Of a stretch of DNA of 40,041 bases, positions 2,765-39,240 are shown in pieces (position 1 is the stretch's first letter; every line of letters starts with the position of its first letter). The notes below the pieces were generated by a model. The model did not search any database, was not told the origin of the DNA, and saw only the letters and a program-made list of their open reading frames with translations. Source of the DNA: a virus; the IMG/VR virus record IMGVR_UViG_3300021559_000019, positions 1-40,041 of that record. One strand, written 5' to 3'. Position numbers and translations under genes: made by a program.

Positions 2765-3295
2765 TTACATTCCGGATATTCTCCGCACCCAACCACGCGG
2801 GTTTCTACTATAGTTCCGAGAAGAACGGTATTGATTGCTTAATCTATAATTTTTCTGTGCTTTTAACCACCCAACTCGGTATCTCCCGTTCGGGTATTTA
2901 TTGTGGCAACTTCCACATAATTTCTTCCCGCTCCACACATAGCGTCCTTTAGAACATCTTCTGTGGGAGTGACGGCGGCACGCTATAAAGGTTGTTTCCC
3001 ACTTTTTAGCCCGCCGTTCTCTGGATTCCACAGAACGAGAATAATTGTTGGAACACTTTGAGCATCCTTTGGTTCTGCTTCCGTGTAGCCAAGAAGAAAT
3101 CTTTATTGGTTTGTCGTGCTCTAAGCAAAGTCTTTTTTCAGGCGGGGGAACGGCAACTATTTTATTTCTTCTTTGAATTCTTTCTTTTTGACACTCTGAG
3201 CAAGATTGATTCCTATGCCCCGCAAGCCACAGACTAGGAGCTATAGGTCTGCGATGTTTCTTACAAAGCCTTTTGCTCGGCGGCGGAATCTTCAC
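2765..3295 (-). CDS. Triple CxxH-x17-CxxC zinc-finger protein, leaderless cassette gene
   Basis: 176 aa, very basic. It holds three tandem modules with identical spacing: C11/H14...C32/C35, C57/H60...C78/C81 and C106/H109...C127/C130, each CxxH-x17-CxxC, presumably one zinc each. The first two also share 'P..KRLC..H..PI..S.WL.G.R...CS.C'. A basic tail (residues 140-176) follows. No HNH or GIY-YIG catalytic motif is seen. The GTG start at 3295 lies 6 nt after the -10 box of a strong minus-strand promoter, so the mRNA should be leaderless. It is inserted between two plus-strand virion genes, in the same position as homing endonuclease cassettes in this genome. Nucleic-acid binding is inferred. 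Confidence 0.7.
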   Translation of the reverse strand: MKIPPPSKRLCKKHRRPIAPSLWLAGHRNQSCSECQKERIQRRNKIVAVPPPEKRLCLEHDKPIKISSWLHGSRTKGCSKCSNNYSRSVESRERRAKKWETTFIACRRHSHRRCSKGRYVWSGKKLCGSCHNKYPNGRYRVGWLKAQKNYRLSNQYRSSRNYSRNPRGWVRRISGM

Positions 3296-8243: not shown

Positions 8244-8651
8244 ATGGCATCTCGCGCAGAGGAATACGTAAAGTCCCATCTTATCCATACAGCTTGGAAG
8301 TATGGGCAGCATTACGGGGGAACGCCCGCAATGATGGCAATTCTTCACGTCCTTAAAGCAAGACAGCGGGCCGGATGGGGGACATATCTACACATTCTGG
8401 ATACCGTGGATAAGTGGCACGCAGCCCCACCTAAAACCACCACCCACGCAGACATTTGGGACAGGCGCTTTTTGAGTTTGTGGAATGAAATCGACGGGAT
8501 TTGCGACGATACGAGGCGCGACCCAGTGAATGGTGCGCTCTATTGGGGGGACACCACGGATATTCAATCAGACTGGTTCATGGAGCACGTTTGCCTTAAT
8601 CCGGAAAAGATTCGTTGTGCCGACATGGGATCGTTGACCTTTTGGCGCTGA
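8244..8651 (+). CDS. SleB-like cell wall hydrolase (putative)
   Basis: 135 aa. The layout resembles the phage cell-wall hydrolase/SleB-like group: 'MAILHVLKARQRAGWG' near the N terminus (a helix with A..HV...R...GWG), then 'DDTRRDPVNGALYWGD' in the middle and 'WFMEHVCLNPEK..CADMGSLTFW' at the end. No signal peptide, so export would need a holin or virion delivery. Follows the 97-aa gene after 17 nt. The last 88 nt are read antisense by the homing endonuclease frame ending at 8564. Family assignment is by motif memory and moderately sure. Confidence 0.5.
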   Translation: MASRAEEYVKSHLIHTAWKYGQHYGGTPAMMAILHVLKARQRAGWGTYLHILDTVDKWHAAPPKTTTHADIWDRRFLSLWNEIDGICDDTRRDPVNGALYWGDTTDIQSDWFMEHVCLNPEKIRCADMGSLTFWR

Positions 8652-9325
8652 TGCTTCTTTGACCGTTCGACTCCTTGTTCCGCGTTAGTCATCCATTTGC
8701 AGTTTTCAGGGCAGTAGTTTCCGATATCCCCGAACCGACCGAGCGACAAACCTTTTGGTTTTTCTTCCATGTCTCGCAAAAAGTTTGTATACCCTTCGGG
8801 GTTTTTAGAGTGCCATCTGTCGCACACGGAGATTCCAGCCGCCCCGTATGTTTTATAGTCTTGGTTATTGGGGTTGTTGCACCTATTGTTCATGGATTTC
8901 CATGACACATAGGTCGGGGTTTTCCGCATGTTTTTGGTGAACCCTTTGGTGCTGAAACACCCGCAATTAGAGTTTCTCTTGTCTCGTATACAAGGAACGA
9001 GACATTGTGTACTGCGCTTAATTGTGTTTCCGCAATCACATTGACAAAGCCACACAAATCGCCCGTTGCATCGTTCTGCGGTCGCGGCTATCACGACGAG
9101 TTTCCCAATTCGGGTTCCTACCAAGTTCCGGCTCTTTTTAGTCTTCTTGTTGAGGCAACCGCAACTCTGTACGTTTCCGGATTTAAGATTAGCTCCTCGA
9201 ACAGATTTTGTATTACCGCAAGAACATTGGCAGAACCAAAAGGGTCTGCCGCCGTCCGGTCTGGGATCGCGCCCTTTGACCGTCAGTTTTCCGAATGTTT
9301 TGCCCGTCAAATCTATTAGGTCCAT
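8564..9325 (-). CDS. HNH-family homing endonuclease with two zinc-ribbon modules, leaderless
   Basis: 253 aa from ATG 9325. Two DNA-binding zinc modules: residues 5-57 (DLTGKTFGKLTV...CQCSCG...SCGCL) and 68-123 (GTRIGKLVVI...CQCDCG...CGCF). The C-terminal part (137-215) matches phage HNH/AP2-type homing endonucleases (WKSMNNRCNN...YGAAGISVCDRW...GNYCPENCKWMT). The usual LDRIDNNGNY is here LGRFGDIGNY (195-204), so an acidic/His-equivalent site residue is replaced by Gly and activity may be lost. An in-frame ATG at 9361 lies in the promoter; 9325 is 7 nt after the -10 box, giving a leaderless mRNA. Its C terminus overlaps the plus-strand hydrolase gene antisense by 88 nt. Confidence 0.82.
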   Translation of the reverse strand: MDLIDLTGKTFGKLTVKGRDPRPDGGRPFWFCQCSCGNTKSVRGANLKSGNVQSCGCLNKKTKKSRNLVGTRIGKLVVIAATAERCNGRFVWLCQCDCGNTIKRSTQCLVPCIRDKRNSNCGCFSTKGFTKNMRKTPTYVSWKSMNNRCNNPNNQDYKTYGAAGISVCDRWHSKNPEGYTNFLRDMEEKPKGLSLGRFGDIGNYCPENCKWMTNAEQGVERSKKHQRQKVNDPMSAQRIFSGLRQTCSMNQSD

Positions 9326-9332
9326 AGCATGA

Positions 9333-9369
9333 AGTATAGCAAGTAATTTGTCATTTGTCAAGTTGACAA
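9333..9369 (-). promoter_or_regulatory. Consensus minus-strand promoter with perfect palindromic operator
   Basis: -35 TTGACA (complement of 9356-9361), 17 bp, -10 TATACT (complement of 9333-9338). The operator is the perfect palindrome TTGTCAAGTTGACAA (9355-9369). Start of the HNH gene is 7 nt past the -10. The plus-strand RHS gene begins 31 nt beyond the palindrome; no plus-strand -10 is seen at the mirror position. Confidence 0.78.
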
Positions 9370-9400
9370 AACCCGCCCGAATTCAAATCAAGGATTAACA

Positions 9401-12400
9401 ATGAAGTCTCTTATCAAACTGATGATGGTAGTGTGCCTGTGTGGAGTTGTTTACGGGCAGCGTGATGGTGTTCCGACTTTCATTCCCGCCGACACTTACG
9501 AAGTTGATACAATCAATTTGCTGACTTTAGCTCCCGTATTCAACATTCCAATTCTGTCCAAGAACGAATTTCTTCCTTTTGGGTATGTAGAGACTTCTAG
9601 TCAAGGATGTTCAGTGACCGGGAGCCCATCGGTTCTCGTATGCGGCAGCCCTAATGGGGCGGTTTTTAACGGATATTCTTCTGGTCTTTTGGGAACATAT
9701 GTCGTAGTGACGGGCGGTACGCAAAACGGCACTTGCCCCTACTACTCCGGATGGTACGTTGTTAGCGGCGATGGCTTGGATTACCATCCCGTAGCTTCTA
9801 CATACAGCCTTTATAAATGCAGCGGCCCGTCAAGTTTTACCGCCACTACTATTGATGGATCAGGATACACGCTGTCTGTGCACATGACCTCCGGTGTTGT
9901 GTCGGGCACCGTTACCTCTTCTTCCGGACGAAATGTGTCGGTGTCTTCCTTTACGCCTTCCGTTCCCTCGGGGGGACAGTCGTCTTCATCTTTAAGCGAG
10001 AGCGATTCTTTTGGTAACTCTCAAAGCAGTTCAGCCGGGGTGTATACCGACTCTCTGGGAGTCCAAACTCTTACCGCCACAAATAGCGGATTAAACCAGA
10101 TATTCACACAGTGGACCGATACGCAGGGAAACCCGCAGCAAATTACATGGACTCTCGTAACATCTCAGCTATCCATAAATTTGACCGGAGAAACATGCGC
10201 TAGTAATTGGTATAGTCGAGCTTTTTACCCGCTAACTTCTATAGGCTATCCTGACGGAACCTCCGTTGGAAATATTACATACGAACCGGGCTCCGGAGGC
10301 TCAGGTACAACTACCGGGAGAATTCAATCTTTCACGCTCCGAACAGGCGGGGTGATTTCTTATGCCTACAATACGCCGTGCAATAGTGCGGGCACGACTA
10401 ACTCGTTGACTAGAACTACCCCCGATGGTTCTACTGCCTACACAAAAGCAGTTGTGGTTCAAAACGGTTCCGAAATCACATACTCTACAACTGTTCTCGA
10501 TCCGGGAAAAAACAAAACTGTTTATTACTTTCCCGTGGTATCTGGAACGAGCTACGCCCCTGTTGTTAGTGAGATAGACAGATACCAAAATACGGGCACG
10601 GTATCGTCCCCCGTGTACACTCTTCTTTCTAAAGATGTCGTGTGCTATAACGGAGTCCAGACAAATTGCAGGGACACCGACCCGCTATACCCCATCACGC
10701 AAAGAGATACATACCACACAATCGGTGCGATGTCTACCAGTTCTCGGGTGAGCGAGACTTTTGATTCGTATGGAAATCGTGCCACCGTCGCCAACTACGA
10801 TTTCGGCGCATCGAGTTTCACCACAAAGACAACAACTACATACGGATCAAGTTGCGGGCCCAACGCAAACATAAACGATTTGCCGTGTGACGTGCTGACC
10901 ACCGATGGCGCACACAACCTTTCCGAAACGAAGTACACATATAATTCAAACGGAGCACCTCTCTCTAGTTCTCGATTGACGGGATCAACGTGGCTTACAA
11001 CGAACTACACTCCAAACGCCACGGGAACCATAGGAATTGTTCAAGAACCTAACGGACAAACCATCAACATTGGATGGGACGCTACGGGCACCAACGGCGG
11101 CTGTAACGGAATGTTGCCCACATGGACTTCCACAGTTCTAAGCGGCGTGACACTAAAAACCTCACAGACTTGGGATTGCAATACTGGTTTACCGTTAGTT
11201 AGTACCGACGTAAACGGAAACTCACCGCTTCCTAATCTGTACGACTCAATGCTTCGCACGTCGCAGGTGACTGATAATCTTCAAGCGTATCAGCTTTCTA
11301 TGCTCTATACGAGTAACACGGTTTCTATAGTTCCGTCATTTGGAACAACCAGCATGAAGTTTTTTGACGGCCTAGGGCGAGACGTTGTTTCTCAGCACAG
11401 GCAGACTCCGAGTTCTTCGAACTACGATACCGTGTCGTCGTCCTATGCGTTTTCTGGCCCAAATGCACAGGTCATTTCAAGTTCTCCGTGTACTCAAACG
11501 TGGGATACCTCCTGCACAACTAATTTCACCACTAGCGTAGTCAATCCTCTCGGGCTTCCGATATCCACTACCGATCCGCTCGGCGGGACTCTGACGTACG
11601 TCTACAACAAGAACGATGCTTCGGTTACGGTCGGCCCCGCACCTTCCGGAGAACATGTAAAAACCATCCAAACCGAAGTAGACGGTCTCGGCAGAACCAA
11701 ATCTGTCTGCACTTTGCAGACGAGTGGCGGCACGGCTTGTGGTCAGGCGATGGGCGGCTCTGGAATTCTCGATACTTACTCCTACTCGTTCGGGGCCGGA
11801 ACAGCAACTACGTCAGTGACTCGTGGAACTCAGACCCACACGACTACCGTGGATGCTTTGGGCCGACCTATTTCAGTCACTACGCCCGAGTCCGGAACCA
11901 CAACATATTACTATGACTCCGTTACTACCTCGGCATGTGGAACCGTAACTTCGGCAGGAACGCTATTAGAAATTAAAGACAATATAGGCAATTACTCCTG
12001 CTTCCTTCCAGACGGGGACGGGCGATACACATCAGTCGGAACCAACATCGCCAGCACTTCTCCATGCAAACGTTTCGCCTATGACAACGTGAACGGATTT
12101 TATGGGCAGGGATCTCCGACAGGGTACGTCGGAAATAATTTAGTGGGCCGCGTGGTAGAGGCGGAAACAGACGATTGCACTTGGCCGACTTCACCTGCGC
12201 ACATGTTGACTGATGAATGGTTCAGCTACGACGCAGACGGGCGAATGACAGATATGTGGGAATCTACGCCGCATTCCGGAGGATACTACCACACATCTGT
12301 TGCCTACAACCCTAACGGCACGATCAATGCGCTCAACGGCATTCCCGGCTACGACGCGTACACCTCCGGAGTTGACGGCGAGGGTCGCCCGAGTACCGCC

Positions 12401-14170
12401 TCGCAGGGCACAACTACTATTATCAACGGGGTTACCTACGACGCGGGCAGCCGTCCGCTTTCCGTACTCGTTGGAACTTCTGGCGACAGCGATACTTTTA
12501 CGTATGACGCCGTTGAGAAAATGAAGACCTACACGTTTTCCGTAAACGGCAAATCTGATGCCGGAGTATTGACTTGGGACCAAGACGGAACGCTGGGAAC
12601 TCTCGCAATTACCGACACATTCAACACCGGAGGGTCACAGACCTGCAATTTCGCCTACGATGACGTTGCCCGTTTAACCGATGATAATTGTGGATCGACC
12701 CTGTGGCACCAAACGTACAGTTACGATCAATACGACAATCTCACGAAGACCGGAAATCCCGGTACTTCTTGGAATCCCGGCTATAACACAGCAAACAACG
12801 AAATGGTGGGAAGTTCGTATGACGCCGATGGGCATCTCCTCTACGATGGCGTGAACACCTACTCGTGGGACGCCTACGGGAAACTATCAAGCGCACGTTT
12901 AGGCAATGGAACTCCGGTATGTGGACAGAGCGGTTCATACTGCGTTACCTATGATGCTTTTGGTCGGATCGTTGAGGCCTCTAGCGGCAGCAGCACGTAT
13001 GAATACCTATTCAGCCCTGTCGGGCGTGTAGCTACAACGAGCGGCGCAACCAATGTCTTCGAGTCTTTTTTACCTCTACCGGGAGGGCCATCTTTGAAGA
13101 TGACCGGACCCAATGGTAGCGGAACAAAAGTAATTATTCACAAAGATTGGCTCGGTTCTGGACGGTTAGGGACAAACTTTGGATCGAGAAATATGGCGTG
13201 GGATGCTGCACGCACTCCATACGGAGAAGCCTACGCTACTTCGGGAACTGTAAAACAGGATTTCACGGGCGATCTGCAAGACATCATGCCGGGATTGTTC
13301 GACACACCAAATCGGGAATTGGCAACCAACGCTTCTCGGTGGCTGTCTCCTGACCCGGCTGGTGCGAGTTGGAATGCGTATTCGTATCCTACAAATCCTA
13401 ATATTTCAACAGACCCGACAGGACTCTACGCCGGGGGTGTGGGGGCCGGGTTCCACTCTTGTCCGGCATATGGGGCTTGCGGCGATCTTACCGCTTTTGA
13501 TGAACCGTACTCCCAAGCTTTAACTATAACTATACCTAGTAGCCCTATGAGCGACATCATAGACTTCTTTATCGGGCAGGATAACAATAGCCCATCTGGA
13601 GCGCAAGCTACGGGAGCCTTGTCCGGAGAAGAACAATTTTCTCTGCTGCCCCGAGGAACCGATGCTCTAGGTATGATAGGTGACTTTCAGTGGCCCAATA
13701 GAGATTCCAACGCGCAGTTTCAATATGCAGGAGACGTAGCTGGAACTCTCGGTCTTCACGGCCCGCTATCCAACGGAGAGGATTGGTGGCAACGAATATC
13801 CGATACGATGTCGGCTGTTGCGTTGCTCGGAAATGGCAGAAACGTTGAGCCCCGATTGATGCCTGTGCTGGAAAAGAATCCTTTCAGCATTAACGAAACC
13901 ATAGACTTGATTGACCGTCTAAGTTCAGAAAACGGTGGCCTGACGGGTAACGGCGAACCCCTACCCTCGCAAGGGTCGGATGTGGAATTCTGGGATAAAG
14001 CTAGATACAGAGGCTCGCACGCAGATTCGTGGCAGTCGAAATGGGTTTCCTACGGAAACGAGGCTCCTACAACTTCGGCTTTCTATACTGGTTCGTTTAA
14101 GCCGGGGTATGCACCGTTGGATTCTAGCGTAATCCAACACCTTATAAATCTAGTGATTGGTTTGCAGTAG
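9401..14170 (+). CDS. Giant RHS/YD-repeat protein with signal peptide
   Basis: 1589 aa. Residues 1-19 (MKSLIKLMMVVCLCGVVYG) form a Sec signal peptide. Residues about 60-330 are a Ser/Thr-rich beta region; YD-type repeats (YDxxGR, YNxxG, YDADGRM, YDAFGRIVEAS) run from about 440 to 1215. The RHS core follows, with PNRELATNASRWLSPDPAG and ...STDPTGLY ending near residue 1343. A 246-residue C-terminal tail without recognised motif follows, the position of toxin domains in polymorphic RHS toxins; here the usual core peptidase motif is imperfect. Such proteins form hollow beta cocoons. In a virion operon it could be a tailspike or adhesin, or a cargo gene. ATG 9401 has AAGGA about 8 nt upstream. 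Confidence 0.88.
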   Translation: MKSLIKLMMVVCLCGVVYGQRDGVPTFIPADTYEVDTINLLTLAPVFNIPILSKNEFLPFGYVETSSQGCSVTGSPSVLVCGSPNGAVFNGYSSGLLGTYVVVTGGTQNGTCPYYSGWYVVSGDGLDYHPVASTYSLYKCSGPSSFTATTIDGSGYTLSVHMTSGVVSGTVTSSSGRNVSVSSFTPSVPSGGQSSSSLSESDSFGNSQSSSAGVYTDSLGVQTLTATNSGLNQIFTQWTDTQGNPQQITWTLVTSQLSINLTGETCASNWYSRAFYPLTSIGYPDGTSVGNITYEPGSGGSGTTTGRIQSFTLRTGGVISYAYNTPCNSAGTTNSLTRTTPDGSTAYTKAVVVQNGSEITYSTTVLDPGKNKTVYYFPVVSGTSYAPVVSEIDRYQNTGTVSSPVYTLLSKDVVCYNGVQTNCRDTDPLYPITQRDTYHTIGAMSTSSRVSETFDSYGNRATVANYDFGASSFTTKTTTTYGSSCGPNANINDLPCDVLTTDGAHNLSETKYTYNSNGAPLSSSRLTGSTWLTTNYTPNATGTIGIVQEPNGQTINIGWDATGTNGGCNGMLPTWTSTVLSGVTLKTSQTWDCNTGLPLVSTDVNGNSPLPNLYDSMLRTSQVTDNLQAYQLSMLYTSNTVSIVPSFGTTSMKFFDGLGRDVVSQHRQTPSSSNYDTVSSSYAFSGPNAQVISSSPCTQTWDTSCTTNFTTSVVNPLGLPISTTDPLGGTLTYVYNKNDASVTVGPAPSGEHVKTIQTEVDGLGRTKSVCTLQTSGGTACGQAMGGSGILDTYSYSFGAGTATTSVTRGTQTHTTTVDALGRPISVTTPESGTTTYYYDSVTTSACGTVTSAGTLLEIKDNIGNYSCFLPDGDGRYTSVGTNIASTSPCKRFAYDNVNGFYGQGSPTGYVGNNLVGRVVEAETDDCTWPTSPAHMLTDEWFSYDADGRMTDMWESTPHSGGYYHTSVAYNPNGTINALNGIPGYDAYTSGVDGEGRPSTASQGTTTIINGVTYDAGSRPLSVLVGTSGDSDTFTYDAVEKMKTYTFSVNGKSDAGVLTWDQDGTLGTLAITDTFNTGGSQTCNFAYDDVARLTDDNCGSTLWHQTYSYDQYDNLTKTGNPGTSWNPGYNTANNEMVGSSYDADGHLLYDGVNTYSWDAYGKLSSARLGNGTPVCGQSGSYCVTYDAFGRIVEASSGSSTYEYLFSPVGRVATTSGATNVFESFLPLPGGPSLKMTGPNGSGTKVIIHKDWLGSGRLGTNFGSRNMAWDAARTPYGEAYATSGTVKQDFTGDLQDIMPGLFDTPNRELATNASRWLSPDPAGASWNAYSYPTNPNISTDPTGLYAGGVGAGFHSCPAYGACGDLTAFDEPYSQALTITIPSSPMSDIIDFFIGQDNNSPSGAQATGALSGEEQFSLLPRGTDALGMIGDFQWPNRDSNAQFQYAGDVAGTLGLHGPLSNGEDWWQRISDTMSAVALLGNGRNVEPRLMPVLEKNPFSINETIDLIDRLSSENGGLTGNGEPLPSQGSDVEFWDKARYRGSHADSWQSKWVSYGNEAPTTSAFYTGSFKPGYAPLDSSVIQHLINLVIGLQ

Positions 14171-14347: not shown

Positions 14348-14375
14348 ATTCTAACAAAGTGAAGGAAAATGTCAA
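14348..14375 (-). promoter_or_regulatory. Minus-strand promoter with half operator
   Basis: -35 TTGACA (complement of 14370-14375), 16-bp spacer, -10 TAGAAT (complement of 14348-14353), then 6 nt to ATG 14341. Only the left half of the palindrome is kept (TGTCAACTCCGAA). The -35 overlaps the stop codon of the HNH gene ending at 14372. Confidence 0.62.
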
Positions 14376-15181
14376 CTCCGAACTTGCAGGTTAAAAACGG
14401 CGGATTCGGGGAGAACGAACAGGCCGCGCCTAATCGCTTCTTGGCGTATCTCTTCGTCTGAGAACTTCGTAATGATCTTTCTTGGGCGCTGGTTATCACT
14501 CTGCTCCTTGGCCGTCGCCCATCGCACGTTTCCGGGCTCATAGTTGCCGTTATTGTTAATCCGGTCAAAAGTCCGGTCGGGTGGTTTCGGGCCTATTTCG
14601 TTTTCTACGTCTGTACGGAAAACAATAAAGGAATCCCGCCACTTTTTGCACATTACGATACCGCGACCGCCGTAATTTTCGTAGCTAATTTGATTGCCGT
14701 TTGTGGTGCGAGTTTTGATCCCATACCAAGTGGAGTAAAGAGGGTGCTTAGACCACCCCCGATGCTTGCCACAGTTTTTTATCGCTCCTGACCGAACTCG
14801 ACTAATAACGCATAGCCGTTCATTACCACACTCGCATCGAAACCACCAGCGAGACACAAGCTCCATCCGCTTCCCGTGTTTAAGCCAAATCGACTCCCCA
14901 CGACGGATTGCGGTCAGATTATGGAAACGACGCCCTGTATAATCCTTGTACTTTCCGAGATTGATTAGTCTTTTATTTTCTATTGCCAAGCATCCGCAGC
15001 TTTTCGTAACACCGCCAACAATCTGCCCACGGGCTACTAAACACTCGTTTCCGCAAGAACAGAGACACCGCCATTGACGGACTTTTTCTTTTCGGCTGCC
15101 ACGAAGTATAGTACCTCCCACTCCCAAAACTGTAAGCCTACCGAATATGCTTCCGGTTAGGTCTTTCCGTATAGTACCCAT
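14372..15181 (-). CDS. HNH-family homing endonuclease with two zinc-ribbon modules, leaderless
   Basis: 269 aa. Domain order as in the homing enzyme at 8564-9325: module 1 residues 6-64 (DLTGSIFGRLTV...CLCSCG...SCGCL), module 2 about 79-137 (DYTGRRFHNLTAI...FRCECG...NCGKH), then the nuclease part 148-225 with W..IKTRT, YGGRGIVMCKKW and the intact FDRINNNGNYEPGNVRWAT (205-223). Catalytic region therefore looks complete. ATG 15181 is 6 nt past a TATACT -10 box, so the transcript should be leaderless. It lies between the RHS gene and a tail-fibre gene, a typical homing position. Confidence 0.85.
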   Translation of the reverse strand: MGTIRKDLTGSIFGRLTVLGVGGTILRGSRKEKVRQWRCLCSCGNECLVARGQIVGGVTKSCGCLAIENKRLINLGKYKDYTGRRFHNLTAIRRGESIWLKHGKRMELVSRWWFRCECGNERLCVISRVRSGAIKNCGKHRGWSKHPLYSTWYGIKTRTTNGNQISYENYGGRGIVMCKKWRDSFIVFRTDVENEIGPKPPDRTFDRINNNGNYEPGNVRWATAKEQSDNQRPRKIITKFSDEEIRQEAIRRGLFVLPESAVFNLQVRS

Positions 15182-16569: not shown

Positions 16570-16751
16570 TACGGTATATCGCACTCGGGCAGCGGCTCAT
16601 CATCGTCACAACTCATAACGGTTGCGGATACTGAATCAAAATTGGGATAGTTGGCTACTTCTTGCGTAGCCTTATCTCGGGCTTCCTGTTCGTTTTCAGC
16701 ATCGACCGTGACGCAGGTTTCTGCTTCGACAAGAACGAAATAGCTTTTCAT
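16566..16751 (-). CDS. Small acidic protein, last gene of the early block
   Basis: 61 aa, strongly acidic (VDAENEQEARDKATQEV; SCDDDEPLPECD). Begins MKSYFVLVEAETCVTVDAEN..ARDKA, a pattern common in short phage proteins of the 'beta-beta-alpha, EA.D.A' type whose function is unknown. Start overlaps the HNH gene stop as ATGA. Ends convergently with the last virion gene, sharing 4 nt. Confidence 0.6.
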   Translation of the reverse strand: MKSYFVLVEAETCVTVDAENEQEARDKATQEVANYPNFDSVSATVMSCDDDEPLPECDIPY

Positions 16752-17272
16752 TTAGTCCTCCAAGATCGTATCAACTTTCCTATTTGCATCCATTCCTCGT
16801 AGGTAAAATGGTCGTTCTTTGAGTAATTGCACCGTCTACAAGCAATTACTATATTTTCCAATTCGTAGGGCTTGCTGTTATCTTTTCTGTCCAAATTTGT
16901 TGCGGTTCCACCTTGCCCTTTTATTCTGTATTCAGGCCAGAAAATATCCTCGCCGCAATAATGGCATTCTTTTGTCTTGGTGAATTCGACAAACTGTTCG
17001 TAGGTGATAAGAACAGGGTAACGAGCCCGTTGAACCAGAGAATTATAATTAGATTCAAAAGGTCTTTTGCGGCGGTAGGGACGCGGGCCTTTGTGTCCAC
17101 ACATCCTACAACGCTTGCTTCTATGATACAGGGCTTGGGATAAACATTTGAACTTGCGCCCACAATTGCACCGAACATTCCAATACAACCGACCTCTTTC
17201 ATACCCCGCACGGCTCAACACCAATCTAGCACCGAACCTCTGCCCAGATAAATCAGGAGTTCTTCTTGGCAT
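16748..17272 (-). CDS. HNH endonuclease with N-terminal zinc module
   Basis: 174 aa. The N-terminal DLSGQRFGARLVL...RCNCGRKF...CRMCG (7-58) is the same DNA-binding module as in the late-region homing endonucleases. The HNH core follows: C103/C106, NLDRKD (126-131), ELENIVIACRRCNYSK with C145/C148 and N149, then H155. All zinc and catalytic positions are present. It overlaps the upstream gene by 20 nt and the downstream gene by 4 nt, so it is embedded in the operon without its own promoter, unlike the late-region cassettes. Confidence 0.85.
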   Translation of the reverse strand: MPRRTPDLSGQRFGARLVLSRAGYERGRLYWNVRCNCGRKFKCLSQALYHRSKRCRMCGHKGPRPYRRKRPFESNYNSLVQRARYPVLITYEQFVEFTKTKECHYCGEDIFWPEYRIKGQGGTATNLDRKDNSKPYELENIVIACRRCNYSKNDHFTYEEWMQIGKLIRSWRTK

Positions 17273-33205: not shown

Positions 33206-33417
33206 TTGATCTCGTAAGACATACACTTGTTATCTAGCTGGACGCCCGTAAGATGGACGTTCTTGTAGTCGGGCTCCCCGTCCTTCAGAGGAGCAACAGC
33301 CTTGACGTTCTCAGACAAGATCACGCAATTCTTGCCCGACCAGACAGCGAACGCCTCTTTCTCTCGGGCACCCGCTGCTGTACAGAAAACGAATAGACAC
33401 ATAAGCCCGTACTTCAT
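33202..33417 (-). CDS. Small secreted protein
   Basis: 71 aa with a signal peptide (MKYGLMCLFVFCTAAGA) and a short mature part containing two Cys (NCVILSEN and DNKCMSYEIK) that could form a disulfide. ATGA overlaps at the downstream end and 4 nt overlap at the upstream end. Probably periplasmic; one of four consecutive envelope-targeted genes near 33.2-35.4 kb. Confidence 0.7.
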   Translation of the reverse strand: MKYGLMCLFVFCTAAGAREKEAFAVWSGKNCVILSENVKAVAPLKDGEPDYKNVHLTGVQLDNKCMSYEIK

Positions 33418-33791
33418 TTCGCAGCCGCCACAGAGTAGTGAACAATTTCATACACGCCCGGACCAACGGCAAACGACTGAGTAAAGAACCGTCCTCCGAG
33501 ATAGGACATACCGAACACGCCCGCAAAGGCGGGTAGCTCGGAATCCCAATGTTCGTGTGAACGTGGGTTTCGACAGGCAATAACCAACGCGGCAGCCGCG
33601 CCCGCCTGAGATAACCAGAACGTCTTTGACTTGAAGAACTGCTTGTTAGTTCTTAGGGGAGGGTCTTGCCAAGACTTCCGGAACGTGAAGAAGCTCGCGG
33701 GCTTCGGTTGAGGCTCAGGAGCATCGGGGAGGGCTTGCCCGTAAACCATCGGGCAAAGCAACGTAGCGAAAGTGAGTAGTAGGGTTTTCAT
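33414..33791 (-). CDS. Exported membrane protein with LPDAPEP motif
   Basis: 125 aa: signal peptide (MKTLLLTFATLLCPMVYGQ), mature N terminus ALPDAPEPQPKPASFF, later hydrophobic segments (AGAAAALVIAC; GVFGMSYLGGRFF). An N-terminal LPDAP after a signal peptide is, from my memory of acidobacterial proteomes, frequent there and rare elsewhere; it is offered as a host hint only. Shares one base with the SSB stop. Function unknown, possibly superinfection exclusion. Confidence 0.68.
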   Translation of the reverse strand: MKTLLLTFATLLCPMVYGQALPDAPEPQPKPASFFTFRKSWQDPPLRTNKQFFKSKTFWLSQAGAAAALVIACRNPRSHEHWDSELPAFAGVFGMSYLGGRFFTQSFAVGPGVYEIVHYSVAAAK

Positions 33792-34165
33792 TAGAAAATG
33801 TCCGGCTCCTCTACAGGCTGTTGCTGACGGGCTGCGGGCTTATGAGACGGCTCTCCATCCGCTTTCCGGACATCAATCGTGTTAGCTACGATATCTGTAG
33901 AGGTCTTCTGCTGACCCTGCCACTCGTAGTTGCGGCTCGTGAGACGCCCGTACATTGTGAACTTGGTTCCGGGTGCGAGTTGCGCGATAGCTTCCGCTAG
34001 ATCGTTCCAAGCAGTGACCTTGAATACGAACGGGTCTTTAGCAGACTTGCCGTATCCGTTGGGCACGGTCATTTCGAAGTTAGCGAGGGCTGCGCCCTTC
34101 GCGGTGTACTTTACGACGGGCTCGCCCGCTAAAGCACCTTCAATAACTACCAGAGTTGATGACAT
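33791..34165 (-). CDS. ssb: Single-stranded DNA-binding protein
   Basis: 124 aa OB-fold: VVIEGALAGEPVVKYTAKGAALANFEM, FVFKVTAWNDLAEAIAQLAPGTKFTMYGRL and QKTSTDIVANTIDVRK follow bacterial SSB strands. A Pro/Gln-rich linker leads to the acidic tip EEPDIF, a variant of the canonical DDIPF that recruits partner proteins. Coats single strands at the fork and in recombination. TGATG overlap with the gene upstream. Confidence 0.92.
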   Translation of the reverse strand: MSSTLVVIEGALAGEPVVKYTAKGAALANFEMTVPNGYGKSAKDPFVFKVTAWNDLAEAIAQLAPGTKFTMYGRLTSRNYEWQGQQKTSTDIVANTIDVRKADGEPSHKPAARQQQPVEEPDIF

Positions 34166-34443
34166 CAGTTTTGCTCCTTGGGAGATATAAAGAACGAGAA
34201 TGGCTTTACGGGCAGGAGGGCATCAAACTTCTCTATGAAATCGGATACCTTTTTGGGAAGCCTGATAAGGGTTGCCGGGGCAGGACAGTAACTATCACAC
34301 CCGACCCAAAGGGATTTATTATTCGTGGCCCTCTTTAACGCCAAAGCTACGGGGCAGTTATTAGCTATCCCTATTTTCCCGGTCTTAAGAAACTTTTTCG
34401 CCTTCTCGATATCCTTTTCGGTAACTTCAATCTTGATTTTCAT
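34165..34443 (-). CDS. Unknown small phage protein
   Basis: 92 aa from ATG 34443 with GAAGGTG upstream; the longer frame from 34479 runs over the upstream gene. Sequence KIKIEVTEKDIEKAKKFLKT, then NCPVALALKRA, which resembles small phage proteins with 'T..DI..A.......NCPVALAL.R'. Such proteins often accompany SSB or DNA polymerase operons; role unknown. First full gene downstream of the promoter at 34537-34573. Confidence 0.68.
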   Translation of the reverse strand: MKIKIEVTEKDIEKAKKFLKTGKIGIANNCPVALALKRATNNKSLWVGCDSYCPAPATLIRLPKKVSDFIEKFDALLPVKPFSFFISPKEQN

Positions 34444-34865
34444 GGATTCACCTTCTTTACGGCTTCTAACGTGTGGCAAGCGAGAACACTAGGGGGAGGG
34501 GATTCGACACGCGCCACTTCAACTGCCCGTGAATACACGATAACAATTTCATCTTCGCTTGTCAAGTTGACAAACATCTCGGTGGCTTTAGGCCCGCAGA
34601 AAAGCAGGGATTCCGAGTACAGCAACGGTGCGTATGCGGGCTTCCACGTCAGAACCGTCCATTGCTTGCCCGAAATACGGATTACATCGAGACCCGCAAC
34701 TGTTCCCATCTGGTACGTACGTGGATTCGTGTAGTGGAAGATATCAGGCACGGGCTTTGAAGGTTGTTTGGGAGCAGCGTGCCCGCGAATCTCCGTCCAA
34801 AACAAAATGAGCAGGGTCACGATAATGACCACTGCCCATCGGAAGAGGTTGCCGAGATAGCGCAT
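34440..34865 (-). CDS. Membrane-anchored exported protein
   Basis: 141 aa with an N-terminal anchor or uncleaved signal (LFRWAVVIIVTLLILFW, about 7-23) and a periplasmic part. A Tyr/Pro-rich segment (DIFHYTNPRTYQMGT) and Cys (LLFCGPKATEMF; VLACHTLEAV). TAATG coupling with the PEP-CTERM gene upstream; the gene carries the operator/promoter at 34537-34573 inside its coding sequence. No recognised domain. Confidence 0.65.
   Translation of the reverse strand: MRYLGNLFRWAVVIIVTLLILFWTEIRGHAAPKQPSKPVPDIFHYTNPRTYQMGTVAGLDVIRISGKQWTVLTWKPAYAPLLYSESLLFCGPKATEMFVNLTSEDEIVIVYSRAVEVARVESPPPSVLACHTLEAVKKVNP
34537..34573 (-). promoter_or_regulatory. Promoter with perfect palindromic operator inside a coding sequence
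   Basis: -35 TTGACA (complement of 34560-34565), 17 bp, -10 TATCGT (complement of 34537-34542); palindrome TTGTCAAGTTGACAA (34559-34573). Weaker -10 than other copies. The predicted start near 34530 gives an 87-nt leader to ATG 34443; it drives the 92-aa gene and ssb. Confidence 0.6.
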
Positions 34866-35440
34866 TAGACCTTCAGATTCCGGCGAACGACGCCCGCCAG
34901 CCCGACCAATCCAGTGCCTAGCAAAGTCAGCGATCCGGGCTCCGGAACTGCTGCACTCCCGTTGTTAATGTTCCCGTTTCCAAGGCTTCCGTAAGACCAT
35001 TGCCCGTTTACCGGACTACCGTTGAGGCGCTCAGTGAACACGCCCGTGTACGGGACATAAGACCACTGTCCGGTTTTCGAACTGTAGGAATAGTCGTAGC
35101 CCGAGAACAGCGCCTTGAATACGTCAGTATTTGAGTTGAAAACCCCGTTGTACAGGCTTCCGTATAGCTCGGTATACTGCGTTCCACTCTTGTTAGTGAA
35201 GTAATCGTACGCCCATCCGGACATGCTTCCCTTACTCCCGTAGGCGTAGAACTCCATCTCGTTCCAGTTGTGATTCGAGCCCGTACCGTAGCTGTAACCG
35301 TACAGATAGTTGTAGGAGCCCGAAGTGTAGGTGTAGGCTTCGCTGCCATAGTTGGAATTCCACGACACCGAATTGATAGAGTTTGCGAATGCGGGCAACG
35401 ATGCCAGCATCAGAACGAAGATTAGCTTGAGTGTTTTCAT
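34865..35440 (-). CDS. PEP-CTERM surface protein encoded by a phage
   Basis: 191 aa. Signal peptide MKTLKLIFVLMLASLPAFA; a Tyr/Ser/Gly/Asn-rich low-complexity body (YTYTSGSYNYLYGYSYG; SLGNGNINNGS); then the full PEP-CTERM sorting signal: VPEPGSLTLLGTGLVGLAGV and the basic end VRRNLKV. Host exosortase (EpsH/XrtA type) recognises the PEP motif and processes such proteins at the envelope, linked to exopolysaccharide. A phage early-block copy would be sorted by host machinery. ATG 35440 has GGGAG at 5 nt. No phage exosortase is visible here. Confidence 0.9.
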   Translation of the reverse strand: MKTLKLIFVLMLASLPAFANSINSVSWNSNYGSEAYTYTSGSYNYLYGYSYGTGSNHNWNEMEFYAYGSKGSMSGWAYDYFTNKSGTQYTELYGSLYNGVFNSNTDVFKALFSGYDYSYSSKTGQWSYVPYTGVFTERLNGSPVNGQWSYGSLGNGNINNGSAAVPEPGSLTLLGTGLVGLAGVVRRNLKV

Positions 35441-35447
35441 GTTCTCC

Positions 35448-35669
35448 CTAGAATTTGTAAGTCTTTTCGTTTGAGCGTTTCAGGTTATCACCCGCAAGGT
35501 AAACAGATTTTCCCGTTACCTCGGAGCCCGCAGTAAAAGCCCAACAATCGTCTTCTTTTCCTTTTACCACGATTTCTATTACGATTTCTCGGGTTTCCTG
35601 ATCTATCCAAGTGCTTACCTCTCGGATGACCTTTCCTCTAAGTTTCGGGTGAACGATTTTCTTAGTCAT
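35448..35669 (-). CDS. Unknown small phage protein
   Basis: 73 aa: basic N terminus (MTKKIVHPKLRGKVIREVS), central beta strands (TREIVIEIVVKGKEDDCWAFTAGS) and a Lys-rich end. ATGA overlap with the annealing-protein gene upstream. No motif recognised. Confidence 0.62.
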   Translation of the reverse strand: MTKKIVHPKLRGKVIREVSTWIDQETREIVIEIVVKGKEDDCWAFTAGSEVTGKSVYLAGDNLKRSNEKTYKF

Positions 35670-36700
35670 TGTGTTAGCAACTCCTTCAACTTCCCGTTTT
35701 TCTCAGCAGCCTCTAACTCATCAAACATTCGGTTCATTTGAACGAAAGGGATATCTTGAGTTGTAGTTACCTTGCCTGCCCGCAACAGATACGGGCCTAT
35801 TCCTTCAAACCCTTTCGCCTTCAGAGCCTTCGCCCGTTCAACAAAGACCTTACGTTCGGCTTCAGTTGCTAGACGGTTGTCTTCGGGCTTCGGTTGTAGG
35901 TTCTCGGGCAAGTCGTTATCCGTGATCGGATTCTCCGGAGTTACCGTGTTGTTCCCGAAGTTGAACGAGGTAGCTTTGTTTTCGGGCTTGGGTTCAAATT
36001 GCCCACTCCACGGAAGATGATGATCTTCGGGTTCGGCTTTCTTCTTAGCCGCTGGCTTAGCTGCGGGCTTTGGCTTCTGTACGGAAACCGGAGTCGGGTC
36101 AGGCTTGCTCGGCTGCGCTGCCGCCTGCCCGTTATTCAGCGCACTAGTTTTCTCCGGCATAACCTTGGTGAATGATCCGCCCGCTTGCTTCTCAAACTTC
36201 TCTGACTCCTCTTCCTCGGGCCCGTGCAAATCTCCCTTGTGCCAGAGGTCCAAAGCCGCGCCAAAACGCATAGCGGCGTTTCGCAGGGCGTCTCCGATGC
36301 GTTCTTTCATGGCATCGCCGCCCGTCTTACCTTGAGCATCCCCGTACCCCAAGCGGGTGACGCCCGCAACGGTCAACTTGATCCACATTCCGCCGTTTGC
36401 ATCCAGAAACGGAGTTCCATCCGCAGCAAAAGACAAAGGTTCCCAAGACCACTGAGGATCAGCCTCCAGCAAGCGATCTGTGATAGCGGCGTGCCCGACA
36501 TAACTCAGTTGCACGGACGGGAGTTTATGAAACCCTCCGCAGTCCCGGCACCGACCGGGCTGGTTATCCTTCTTCGTGGACTTGCACATCTTGGAAATCT
36601 GGTGGGGCTCGAAGGGCTTACGCATCAACTTCAAAGCGGAATCTTTGGCAGGTAGCACGACCGATATGTTGCCCGTTATATTTGAATTTACTTCTGACAT
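35666..36700 (-). CDS. Rad52-fold-like single-strand annealing protein
   Basis: 344 aa. The N-terminal third contains LSYVGHAAITDRLLEADPQWSWEPLSFAADG...WIKLTVAGVTRLGYGDAQGKTGGDAMKERIGDALRNAAMRFGAALDLW (cited in pieces), the pattern of Rad52/Sak-like phage annealing proteins: HAxITxxLLxxDPxWxWE, then GYGDA and A...ALRNAAMRFG. A CRDCGG ribbon lies earlier (about 50-56). The second half is a Pro/Lys/Glu linker with an acidic C-terminal helix. It should anneal complementary strands produced by the RecB-like exonuclease at 31,801-32,634. ATG 36700. Confidence 0.8.
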   Translation of the reverse strand: MSEVNSNITGNISVVLPAKDSALKLMRKPFEPHQISKMCKSTKKDNQPGRCRDCGGFHKLPSVQLSYVGHAAITDRLLEADPQWSWEPLSFAADGTPFLDANGGMWIKLTVAGVTRLGYGDAQGKTGGDAMKERIGDALRNAAMRFGAALDLWHKGDLHGPEEEESEKFEKQAGGSFTKVMPEKTSALNNGQAAAQPSKPDPTPVSVQKPKPAAKPAAKKKAEPEDHHLPWSGQFEPKPENKATSFNFGNNTVTPENPITDNDLPENLQPKPEDNRLATEAERKVFVERAKALKAKGFEGIGPYLLRAGKVTTTQDIPFVQMNRMFDELEAAEKNGKLKELLTQ

Positions 36701-37200: not shown

Positions 37201-39240
37201 TTAGTCTTTACGATACACGAGAGACTCATAGCCTTCAGCGTCCAAGATCAAATCTGAGGCCCACGACGGGGCCTTAATCATCGCCGCTCGTAGATCATCC
37301 AGCGCAAGCTTCGAGTCCTTATCAACCTCACAAATGATCTCGTCGTGCGTCGTCCCGACAATGGGGAGGCCGAGCCTGTCTGCCCCAACCATACCGTGTA
37401 ACAACAGATCGCGGGAGAAAGCCTGACACATATTTTCAACCCATTTCCCGCCATATATCTTGATACGTCCGACAACCTTCTTCGCTTGCAGGCGACCCTC
37501 GTAGGTGATGCCATCCTTCTTGAACTTCTCATCCTTCTCGATCAGCGGGCGAATATAGTGCAACCCGCGCCCCGAAGGGAGGGTCAGCCGAAGCAGCTTG
37601 GTTCCGAAACACTGGAAGGTGAAATCGTTGTATACGACGGGCTGATGAGTCTTCATTGCTTCTAGAGCAGCCGCTTCGATCTCTGCCCACGCTTCTGTGA
37701 CCTCCCAATACTTTGCCCGGAATTTAGCAATTGATTCGTGGGCCAGATCGTGGTCAAGTTCAATTTGTAGCGAGCGTGCGTAGCCCATCAGCCCCGAATA
37801 CACGATGTCTCCATTTTCATCCGTGTATTCTTCGCCCCCAGACAATTGATAACCACCCCCGAGGACTCCGGGCTTCGCATCCTGCCTCTGCTGTTTTGTG
37901 ACTTCCTCGTATGCCACGCCAAACAAATCAACGGCAAAGTCTTTGTACGGGTCTCGACCAGTCCGGAAAACGGAGTTTATGCTCTCGCATTTAGTGATCC
38001 AGCCAAGCCCGCGAAACTCGACCGCATTCAGATCGCAGACCAGCAGTTTCTTGCCCGGACTAGCCTTAATCGTTGACCGGAGCGTGCTTGTAACCACGTC
38101 CATTGGGCTAGAGAACTCCATCGACACGCCCGTATAATCCCGGTTTTTGAGCAGGCTGATTGCTAGGTCTAGATTCTTAGCTACTTCTTTCGTCGGGCGA
38201 GGAAGGTTCTGCATCTGCACGTTCTTAACTTCCCCACCCCCGCCCGACCATCGGCCCGTCCTAGGAGCGCCCATGTACAGAAATTGATGCCTTAATCGCC
38301 CGTCCTCAGATACACAGTCAAGAATGCGTTGGAGCTTGGAGTCGGAAGTCTTGGACGATTGCTTTCGGATGGTAAGAACTTCCTTAGCTGCGGGAGTTAG
38401 GTCACACTCGCCCGCGAGAGCCCTATTGACAAAGGGCTTACCTATGCCCGAGAAGTCATAGCCTTGAGTTGCGAGCCACTTGAGCATCTGCGGGCCGCTG
38501 TTAGTGTTCTCTACGCCTGTGAGTTCCTTGATCCGGGCGTTCAAATCCTTCTTGATCTGTCCGGCAACCGTACTGCTCCCTCGGACAAGATCGAGGTCCA
38601 TTGGAAGCCCGCGAGCATTGATAACCTGATCCAGACACCAGCCCCGATGCTCCATTTCGGGCAACGGAAACGATTGCATCTTGCAGAACAAAGCACGCTC
38701 GGCCTCAACGTCCCGTTTGCAGTATTCACAGAAGCGTTCCCAATCATCAGGATCAGAGTCGGGTCCATGAAACCAAGCATCCATGTGCCCGAACAATGGA
38801 GTTTCTTTGGCCGCGACCCCCGGCTCACAGAATTTCTTGATGAGCCTATCTCCATCCTTGATCTTGGCCTCGTCTTCCGAGAGACCAAATATCTTGCCTA
38901 CGGTGGAGAGGTCACCCGTGACAGACAAATGCCGAGCCCAAATCAGAACATCCACCCACTGCTCGTAAGGAATGTCCATCTGGTGTAGGTACTTGAATGC
39001 CCCGTGTTCAAACGGCGCGTTGTAGGCGATTTTCCGGACGTGTGGGTCTGTTAGAGCGTCCTTGAGTTCGGAGCAGAACTGCCCGTCGATATGGGCTTGC
39101 CAGAGACTTGCGGGGGAGCTATCAACCGCCCATCCGAGAAGCATAGATCGGGTGGATGAATGCCGGAGGTAGTTGTCCAAGCCCCTGTCTGGAAGTGAGA
39201 TTTCACTTCTGGATTCGAAGTCAACGAAAAGGTTAGTCAT
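37201..39240 (-). CDS. PolA-family DNA polymerase
   Basis: 679 aa. 3'-5' exonuclease domain: ExoI DFESRS (D7, E9), ExoII NAPFEHG (74-80), ExoIII YCKRDVEAE (173-181). Polymerase domain: TGRW (328-331), motif A VCDLNAVEFRGL (D403), motif B around K449-QRQDAKPGVLGGGYQ, motif C HDE (632-634). No 5'-3' exonuclease domain. The motif A DLNAVEFR variant and the N-terminal start on DFESRS are typical of a large phage clade of PolA enzymes. Replicative polymerase of this phage; partner of the primase-helicase and SSB. Confidence 0.95.
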   Translation of the reverse strand: MTNLFVDFESRSEISLPDRGLDNYLRHSSTRSMLLGWAVDSSPASLWQAHIDGQFCSELKDALTDPHVRKIAYNAPFEHGAFKYLHQMDIPYEQWVDVLIWARHLSVTGDLSTVGKIFGLSEDEAKIKDGDRLIKKFCEPGVAAKETPLFGHMDAWFHGPDSDPDDWERFCEYCKRDVEAERALFCKMQSFPLPEMEHRGWCLDQVINARGLPMDLDLVRGSSTVAGQIKKDLNARIKELTGVENTNSGPQMLKWLATQGYDFSGIGKPFVNRALAGECDLTPAAKEVLTIRKQSSKTSDSKLQRILDCVSEDGRLRHQFLYMGAPRTGRWSGGGGEVKNVQMQNLPRPTKEVAKNLDLAISLLKNRDYTGVSMEFSSPMDVVTSTLRSTIKASPGKKLLVCDLNAVEFRGLGWITKCESINSVFRTGRDPYKDFAVDLFGVAYEEVTKQQRQDAKPGVLGGGYQLSGGEEYTDENGDIVYSGLMGYARSLQIELDHDLAHESIAKFRAKYWEVTEAWAEIEAAALEAMKTHQPVVYNDFTFQCFGTKLLRLTLPSGRGLHYIRPLIEKDEKFKKDGITYEGRLQAKKVVGRIKIYGGKWVENMCQAFSRDLLLHGMVGADRLGLPIVGTTHDEIICEVDKDSKLALDDLRAAMIKAPSWASDLILDAEGYESLVYRKD

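Follow-up and report, generated by a model that had tools for sequence, protein, structure and literature searches.

A phage-encoded PEP-CTERM protein among replication genes and its predicted sorting by the host

PEP-CTERM sorting tags are regarded as traits of cells. When a viral genome encodes a protein with such a tag, one may ask whether the gene belongs to the phage at all and, if it does, where its product goes and what the phage gains. We analyzed a stretch of 40,041 nucleotides (positions 1 to 40,041 of IMG/VR record IMGVR_UViG_3300021559_000019; hereafter, the window), in which a reading of the letters alone had picked out such a gene.

A PEP-CTERM gene among replication genes

The gene, P0001, encodes 191 amino acids in an open frame at 34865–35440. 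The sequence-only reading had these coordinates exactly right and gave no strand, which is the minus strand; the plus strand over the same interval is interrupted by stops. The start codon is ATG at 35440, with a Shine-Dalgarno-like AGGGAG upstream of it (35444–35449, minus). Residues 1–19 (35384–35440, minus) read directly as a signal peptide with an A-x-A site and coincide with a hydropathy peak at residues 3–21, and residues 165–191 (34868–34948, minus) form a tail consisting of the PEP motif, a hydrophobic helix, and the basic end RRNLK. The protein is thus laid out as MKTLKLIFVLMLASLPAFA / NSINSV...NNGSAA / VPEPGSLTLLGTGLVGLAGVVRRNLKV, with a body rich in Ser, Tyr, Gly, and Asn; hydropathy gives just two peaks, at residues 1–22 and 170–185, with no membrane segment in the body. 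The tail scored above the cut-offs of both PF07589 (26.6 bits, cut-off 20.7, matched over its full length, 1–24) and TIGR02595 (18.9 bits, cut-off 16). In a six-frame search of the record with PF07589, the tail was the single match (E = 5.5e-8) and 0 of 14 control genomes matched, which places it far beyond chance. The earlier claim of a signal peptide and a complete PEP-CTERM tail is borne out, and P0001 is very probably an exported PEP-CTERM protein.

The body matched no family above cut-off in Pfam, NCBIfam, or PHROGs, nor was any enzyme or binding domain recognized in these collections; PEP-CTERM proteins usually have no family match outside the tail (PMC1569441). The model of the flocculation-associated protein PepA (NF033554) scored 29.9 bits over residues 82–188, and so beyond the tail, but its equivalog cut-off is 80 bits, and we rejected P0001 as a PepA member. 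An AlphaFold2 model was all-beta with a pLDDT of 44, a quality too poor for a fold search. Promoter and terminator scans gave matches at chance level only.

P0001 is embedded in a run of minus-strand genes. Its stop overlaps the start of a 141-aa gene (34440–34865; N-terminal membrane segment by hydropathy, no family) through TAATG at 34863–34867, and a 73-aa gene with no family above cut-off lies directly upstream (35448–35669). Beyond these are, on one side, a single-strand annealing protein (35666–36700; phrog_3290, E 3e-49) and DNA polymerase A (PolA; 37201–39240; PF00476, phrog_17) and, on the other, a 104-aa phrog_19191-like gene (34165–34479; PHROG match) and SSB (33791–34165; PF00436, E 3e-14). 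After SSB comes a 125-aa protein with a signal-like N terminus by hydropathy (33414–33791), which has a homologue in a Terriglobia genome (G002, E 8.5e-9). The local order is PolA, annealing protein, PEP-CTERM, 141 aa, 104 aa, SSB, exonuclease, and the window also encodes a primase-helicase and RecA. By hydropathy, three envelope-directed proteins (P0001, the 141-aa protein, and the 125-aa protein) are encoded in a span of about 2 kb, surrounded by genes for replication and recombination. The "early operon" of the sequence-only reading holds as a location, from which early expression would be expected.

A related phage, L010 (91-kb record; PolA 74% identical to that of the window), keeps PolA, the annealing protein (45% identity over 183 aa), the phrog_19191-like protein (37% identical), the exonuclease, and the primase-helicase in the same order. 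There, however, an HNH gene takes the place of the 73-aa, PEP-CTERM, and 141-aa genes between the genes for the annealing protein and the phrog_19191-like protein, and PF07589, which does match other viral records, found nothing in the 91-kb record. Since L010 keeps the flanks and carries an HNH gene there, the spot is variable and P0001 is cargo.

The sole homologue of the P0001 body comes from a bacterial genome, as might be expected of an assembly chimera or host contamination at 34.8–35.5 kb. However, a second contig, IMGVR_UViG_3300050821_001994 (67,833 bp), crosses the site and contains window bases 1–39843 with one mismatch. Genes for a terminase large subunit (phrog_38) and a portal/head-tail adaptor lie in its extra 28 kb, along with a fragment of a gene for a major head protein. 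Both contigs represent one phage, and their samples may be related and reads shared, so the longer one counts as a second assembly across the junctions and not as an independent phage. P0001 also overlaps the adjoining gene, lies between flanks conserved in L010, and has a codon usage as phage-like as that of any window gene tested; together with a GC content of 0.523 (window, 0.515), this codon usage disfavors recent contamination. On the gene overlap, the second contig, the codon usage, and the L010 flanks, we ruled out chimerism, which had been named beforehand as the finding that would overturn the claim and which we now regard as exceedingly improbable. P0001 is almost certainly a real phage gene.

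PEP-CTERM genes in other phages

The expectation that few or no phage examples had been described was upheld for the literature and for cultured phages. We found no open-access paper on phage-encoded PEP-CTERM proteins; a Microcystis paper concerns host genes. Neither P0001 nor any of five further phage PEP-CTERM proteins matched an isolate phage by tblastn (INPHARED, 50,697 records), and no PHROG family matched the phage PEP-CTERM proteins scanned. The tag and its sorting route are known, and their use by phages appears undescribed. P0001 is nevertheless not unique, because such genes recur in many IMG/VR contigs. The strict tail pattern VPEPG[ST]LxLLGxGLxG occurred in 24 IMG/VR stretches and a Ser/Ala variant in at least 120, giving at least 144 in all. 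A hydrophobic stretch near the N terminus combined with the tail at the C terminus was present in 86 of the 103 tail-bearing ORFs that we read. Clustered without their tails at E 1e-6, these 86 proteins fell into 23 clusters, of which the largest two have 35 and 14 members; at 90% identity, there were 57 groups. The tail is kept while bodies differ between phages, which argues for a shared destination. The largest family had no match in plasmids and none in 297 Acidobacteriota genomes, the latter an uninformative negative, since that search had no positive control and the family may belong to another host. PF07589 matched exactly once per record in 19 of 19 records tested. Neighboring pairs of PEP-CTERM genes were seen on single viral contigs, as in L133 (2509–3171 and 4179–4835, both plus) and likewise in L098, L126, and L156; one of these contigs is 228 kb long.

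A few of the tail-bearing contigs may be host DNA. In a PHROG scan, the PEP-CTERM gene lay beside portal genes in L014 and L026, terminase genes in L018 and L031, head, terminase, or portal genes in L016, L019, and L027, and an integrase in L035; among 62 further neighbor proteins, portal and terminase families were the most frequent. With our own profiles, hallmark gene and PEP-CTERM gene were on the same strand in 31 of 31 loci with a detected hallmark (not a count of independent events, since some contigs are near-identical), and in several of them, the two were 4–25 bp apart or overlapping. The same scan found the locus most like the window in L015 (PolA, methyltransferase, PEP-CTERM, Sak4, exonuclease), which we count as an independent parallel, so that searching viral databases for PEP-CTERM genes beside replication genes, as had been suggested, did yield a case. 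In most other phages, the gene is near packaging or head genes and not in an early region.

Pairwise dN/dS in other phages' PEP-CTERM genes was 0.08–0.48 for pairs 70–98% identical (our own NG86 script; pairs within one family are not independent), which indicates purifying selection on those genes; P0001 itself is without a close nonidentical relative, and the values come from the other phages. Many unrelated soil phages carry similar PEP-CTERM genes under selection, and this recurrence is of more interest than the single gene P0001. We give an even chance to the broader proposal that phage exosortase substrates are a widespread, undescribed accessory class, through which many soil lineages hijack PEP-CTERM sorting to dress the infected-cell surface or matrix, with unrelated bodies on a shared tail and the two large families (35 and 14 sampled members) perhaps phage-adapted. 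Acidobacteriota and other abundant soil bacteria have few cultured phages. If soil phages routinely encode exosortase substrates, the surface-sorting machinery of the host would be a phage target, phages may commonly alter the host surface coat, a tactic that would have been overlooked, and there would be a direct handle on phage control of adsorption, aggregation, and exopolysaccharide in these bacteria.

Host lineage, sorting, and possible roles

Which host could supply the exosortase? The exact tail core VPEPG[ST]LTLLGTGLVGLAG occurred in six stretches among ∼85,000 species genomes, all of them Acidobacteriota, and an exosortase was present in 6 of 6 of these genomes (E below 1e-75). One acidobacterial tail (L038) is identical to that of P0001 at 25 of 27 residues. 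A Terriglobia genome encodes the one full-length homologue found, P0002 (35% over 199 aligned positions, tail included); without the tail, the two align at 34% over 104 positions with E = 4e-5 in a single comparison, and the biased composition of the sequence makes this homology suggestive and not firm. With a profile built from P0001 and P0002, we recovered nothing but P0002 from 397 genomes of the order to which it belongs, and IMG/VR yielded no phage other than this one. Judging from these sequence matches, the soil phage with P0001 probably infects Acidobacteriota (Terriglobia). An exosortase was detected in 89 of 151 sampled Terriglobia (matches down to E 1e-6), so that the suggested check of the host genome for EpsH/XrtA reaches as far as the likely host lineage; the host itself is assigned indirectly and would probably have one.

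P0001 closely resembles the substrates of the bacterial PEP-CTERM/exosortase system (EpsH/XrtA; PF07589, TIGR02595, PF09721; Haft et al. 2006, PMC1569441). Both have the signal peptide, PEP motif, hydrophobic helix, and basic end, both have a poorly conserved, low-complexity body, and the P0001 tail hardly differs from those of Terriglobia. In the route proposed for bacteria, export across the inner membrane depends on the signal peptide. The tail helix then anchors the protein so that its PEP motif faces the periplasm, where exosortase acts on it before handing it on with exopolysaccharide (PMC1569441). Bacterial PEP-CTERM genes are single-gene units, whereas P0001 is phage-encoded and part of a multigene replication operon. 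Unlike the bacterial system, the phage has no exosortase among the genes that we recognized, and P0001 would presumably rely on that of the host.

We propose that a Terriglobia phage took up a host-type PEP-CTERM gene and kept it as cargo between recombination genes. P0001 would be made during infection from the replication operon, cross the inner membrane by its signal peptide, and be held there by its C-terminal helix until the host exosortase cuts it at the PEP motif, after which it would reach the outer surface and the exopolysaccharide layer. There it could mask receptors or thicken the coat, the likeliest benefit being that adsorption of rival phages is blocked or reduced. There is good support for P0001 as a phage-encoded surface protein that the host sorts, and its processing by host exosortase is likely. 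Superinfection exclusion or matrix remodeling would be the likeliest purpose. A cargo PEP-CTERM protein that is sorted by the host, changes the infected-cell surface, and limits rival adsorption is the best explanation overall, although we hold it tentatively; its last element, a limit on adsorption, seems possible at rather less than even chances.

Known envelope-modifying and superinfection-exclusion morons (reviewed in PMC11436027) are, like P0001, accessory envelope-targeted genes at variable spots of phage genomes. None was found described as using the host exosortase route predicted for P0001. Moreover, known exclusion cases come mostly from prophages, whereas neither the window record nor the 67,833-bp contig matched an integrase; the longest contig of this phage is linear, and nothing thus points to a lysogen that would gain from long-term exclusion.

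The same sorting could bring another benefit: P0001 might bind the matrix of exopolysaccharide or flocs or change its structure, and aggregation of infected cells or release of progeny would improve as a result. PEP-CTERM proteins function in flocculation and polymer binding (PMC9850573; PMC1569441), and with bacterial PepA, less soluble polymer is released and more polymer is bound (PMC9850573). P0001 has in common with PepA the tail, the weak, below-cut-off similarity over residues 82–188, and the presumed destination; PepA, however, is a host gene under RpoN control (PMC9850573), and P0001 is a phage gene outside NF033554 in which no enzyme or binding domain was recognized. In many other phages, the gene is near late modules, which keeps matrix remodeling in view and weakens a purely early exclusion; with packaging or head genes beside it in most of them, an early-exclusion role would not be general. 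We consider the matrix benefit unlikely as the main one, if a serious competitor.

The remaining accounts fare worse than a host-sorted surface protein. P0001 could be a passenger, a captured host gene of no benefit to the phage, as its presence in one phage lineage and not in the related L010 might suggest. It is intact, has phage-like codons, and overlaps the adjoining gene, however, and the low dN/dS of other phages' PEP-CTERM genes also argues against this account, which we regard as improbable. Slightly more doubtful still is a decoy, in which the phage protein, being abundant, would tie up the host exosortase, so that host surface proteins are no longer sorted and the coat thins: the P0001 tail is almost identical to host tails while phage bodies are mutually unrelated, yet a pure decoy would have no need of the purifying selection seen on the bodies. 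A packaged or particle-decorating virion component is very unlikely despite PEP-CTERM genes directly against a head or portal gene in L019 and L121 and near them in L027, as the signal peptide would remove the protein from the cytoplasm, where virions assemble, and there is no PHROG similarity.

Other features of the phage

The late plus-strand part of the window encodes a 1589-aa RHS-repeat protein (9401–14170, plus) with a signal-peptide-like start and matches to the TIGR03696 RHS core (residues 1272–1342) and PF05593; to our knowledge, so large a secreted-looking RHS protein is unusual in a phage. A virion-region protein (1702–2760, plus) has a Hint-like segment at residues 202–263, near its C-terminal part (PF05203, below cut-off). 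Four lone Cys-rich ORFs lie on the minus strand between or beside plus-strand genes (2765–3295, 8564–9361, 14372–15181, and 16748–17272). They look HNH-like by eye; Pfam gave a subthreshold HNH match for 16748–17272 and none for the other three, and they are possibly homing-type insertions. In L004, the longer contig, a head-protein fragment (phrog_1357) lies between two homing-endonuclease-like ORFs (9066–9941, 9993–10427, and 10514–11167, all plus), laid out as if introns or inteins split the capsid gene. Finally, an identical AATTTGTCAA stands directly before several plus-strand starts in the window (3332, 5834, and 15218) and is perhaps a shared late-gene control element.
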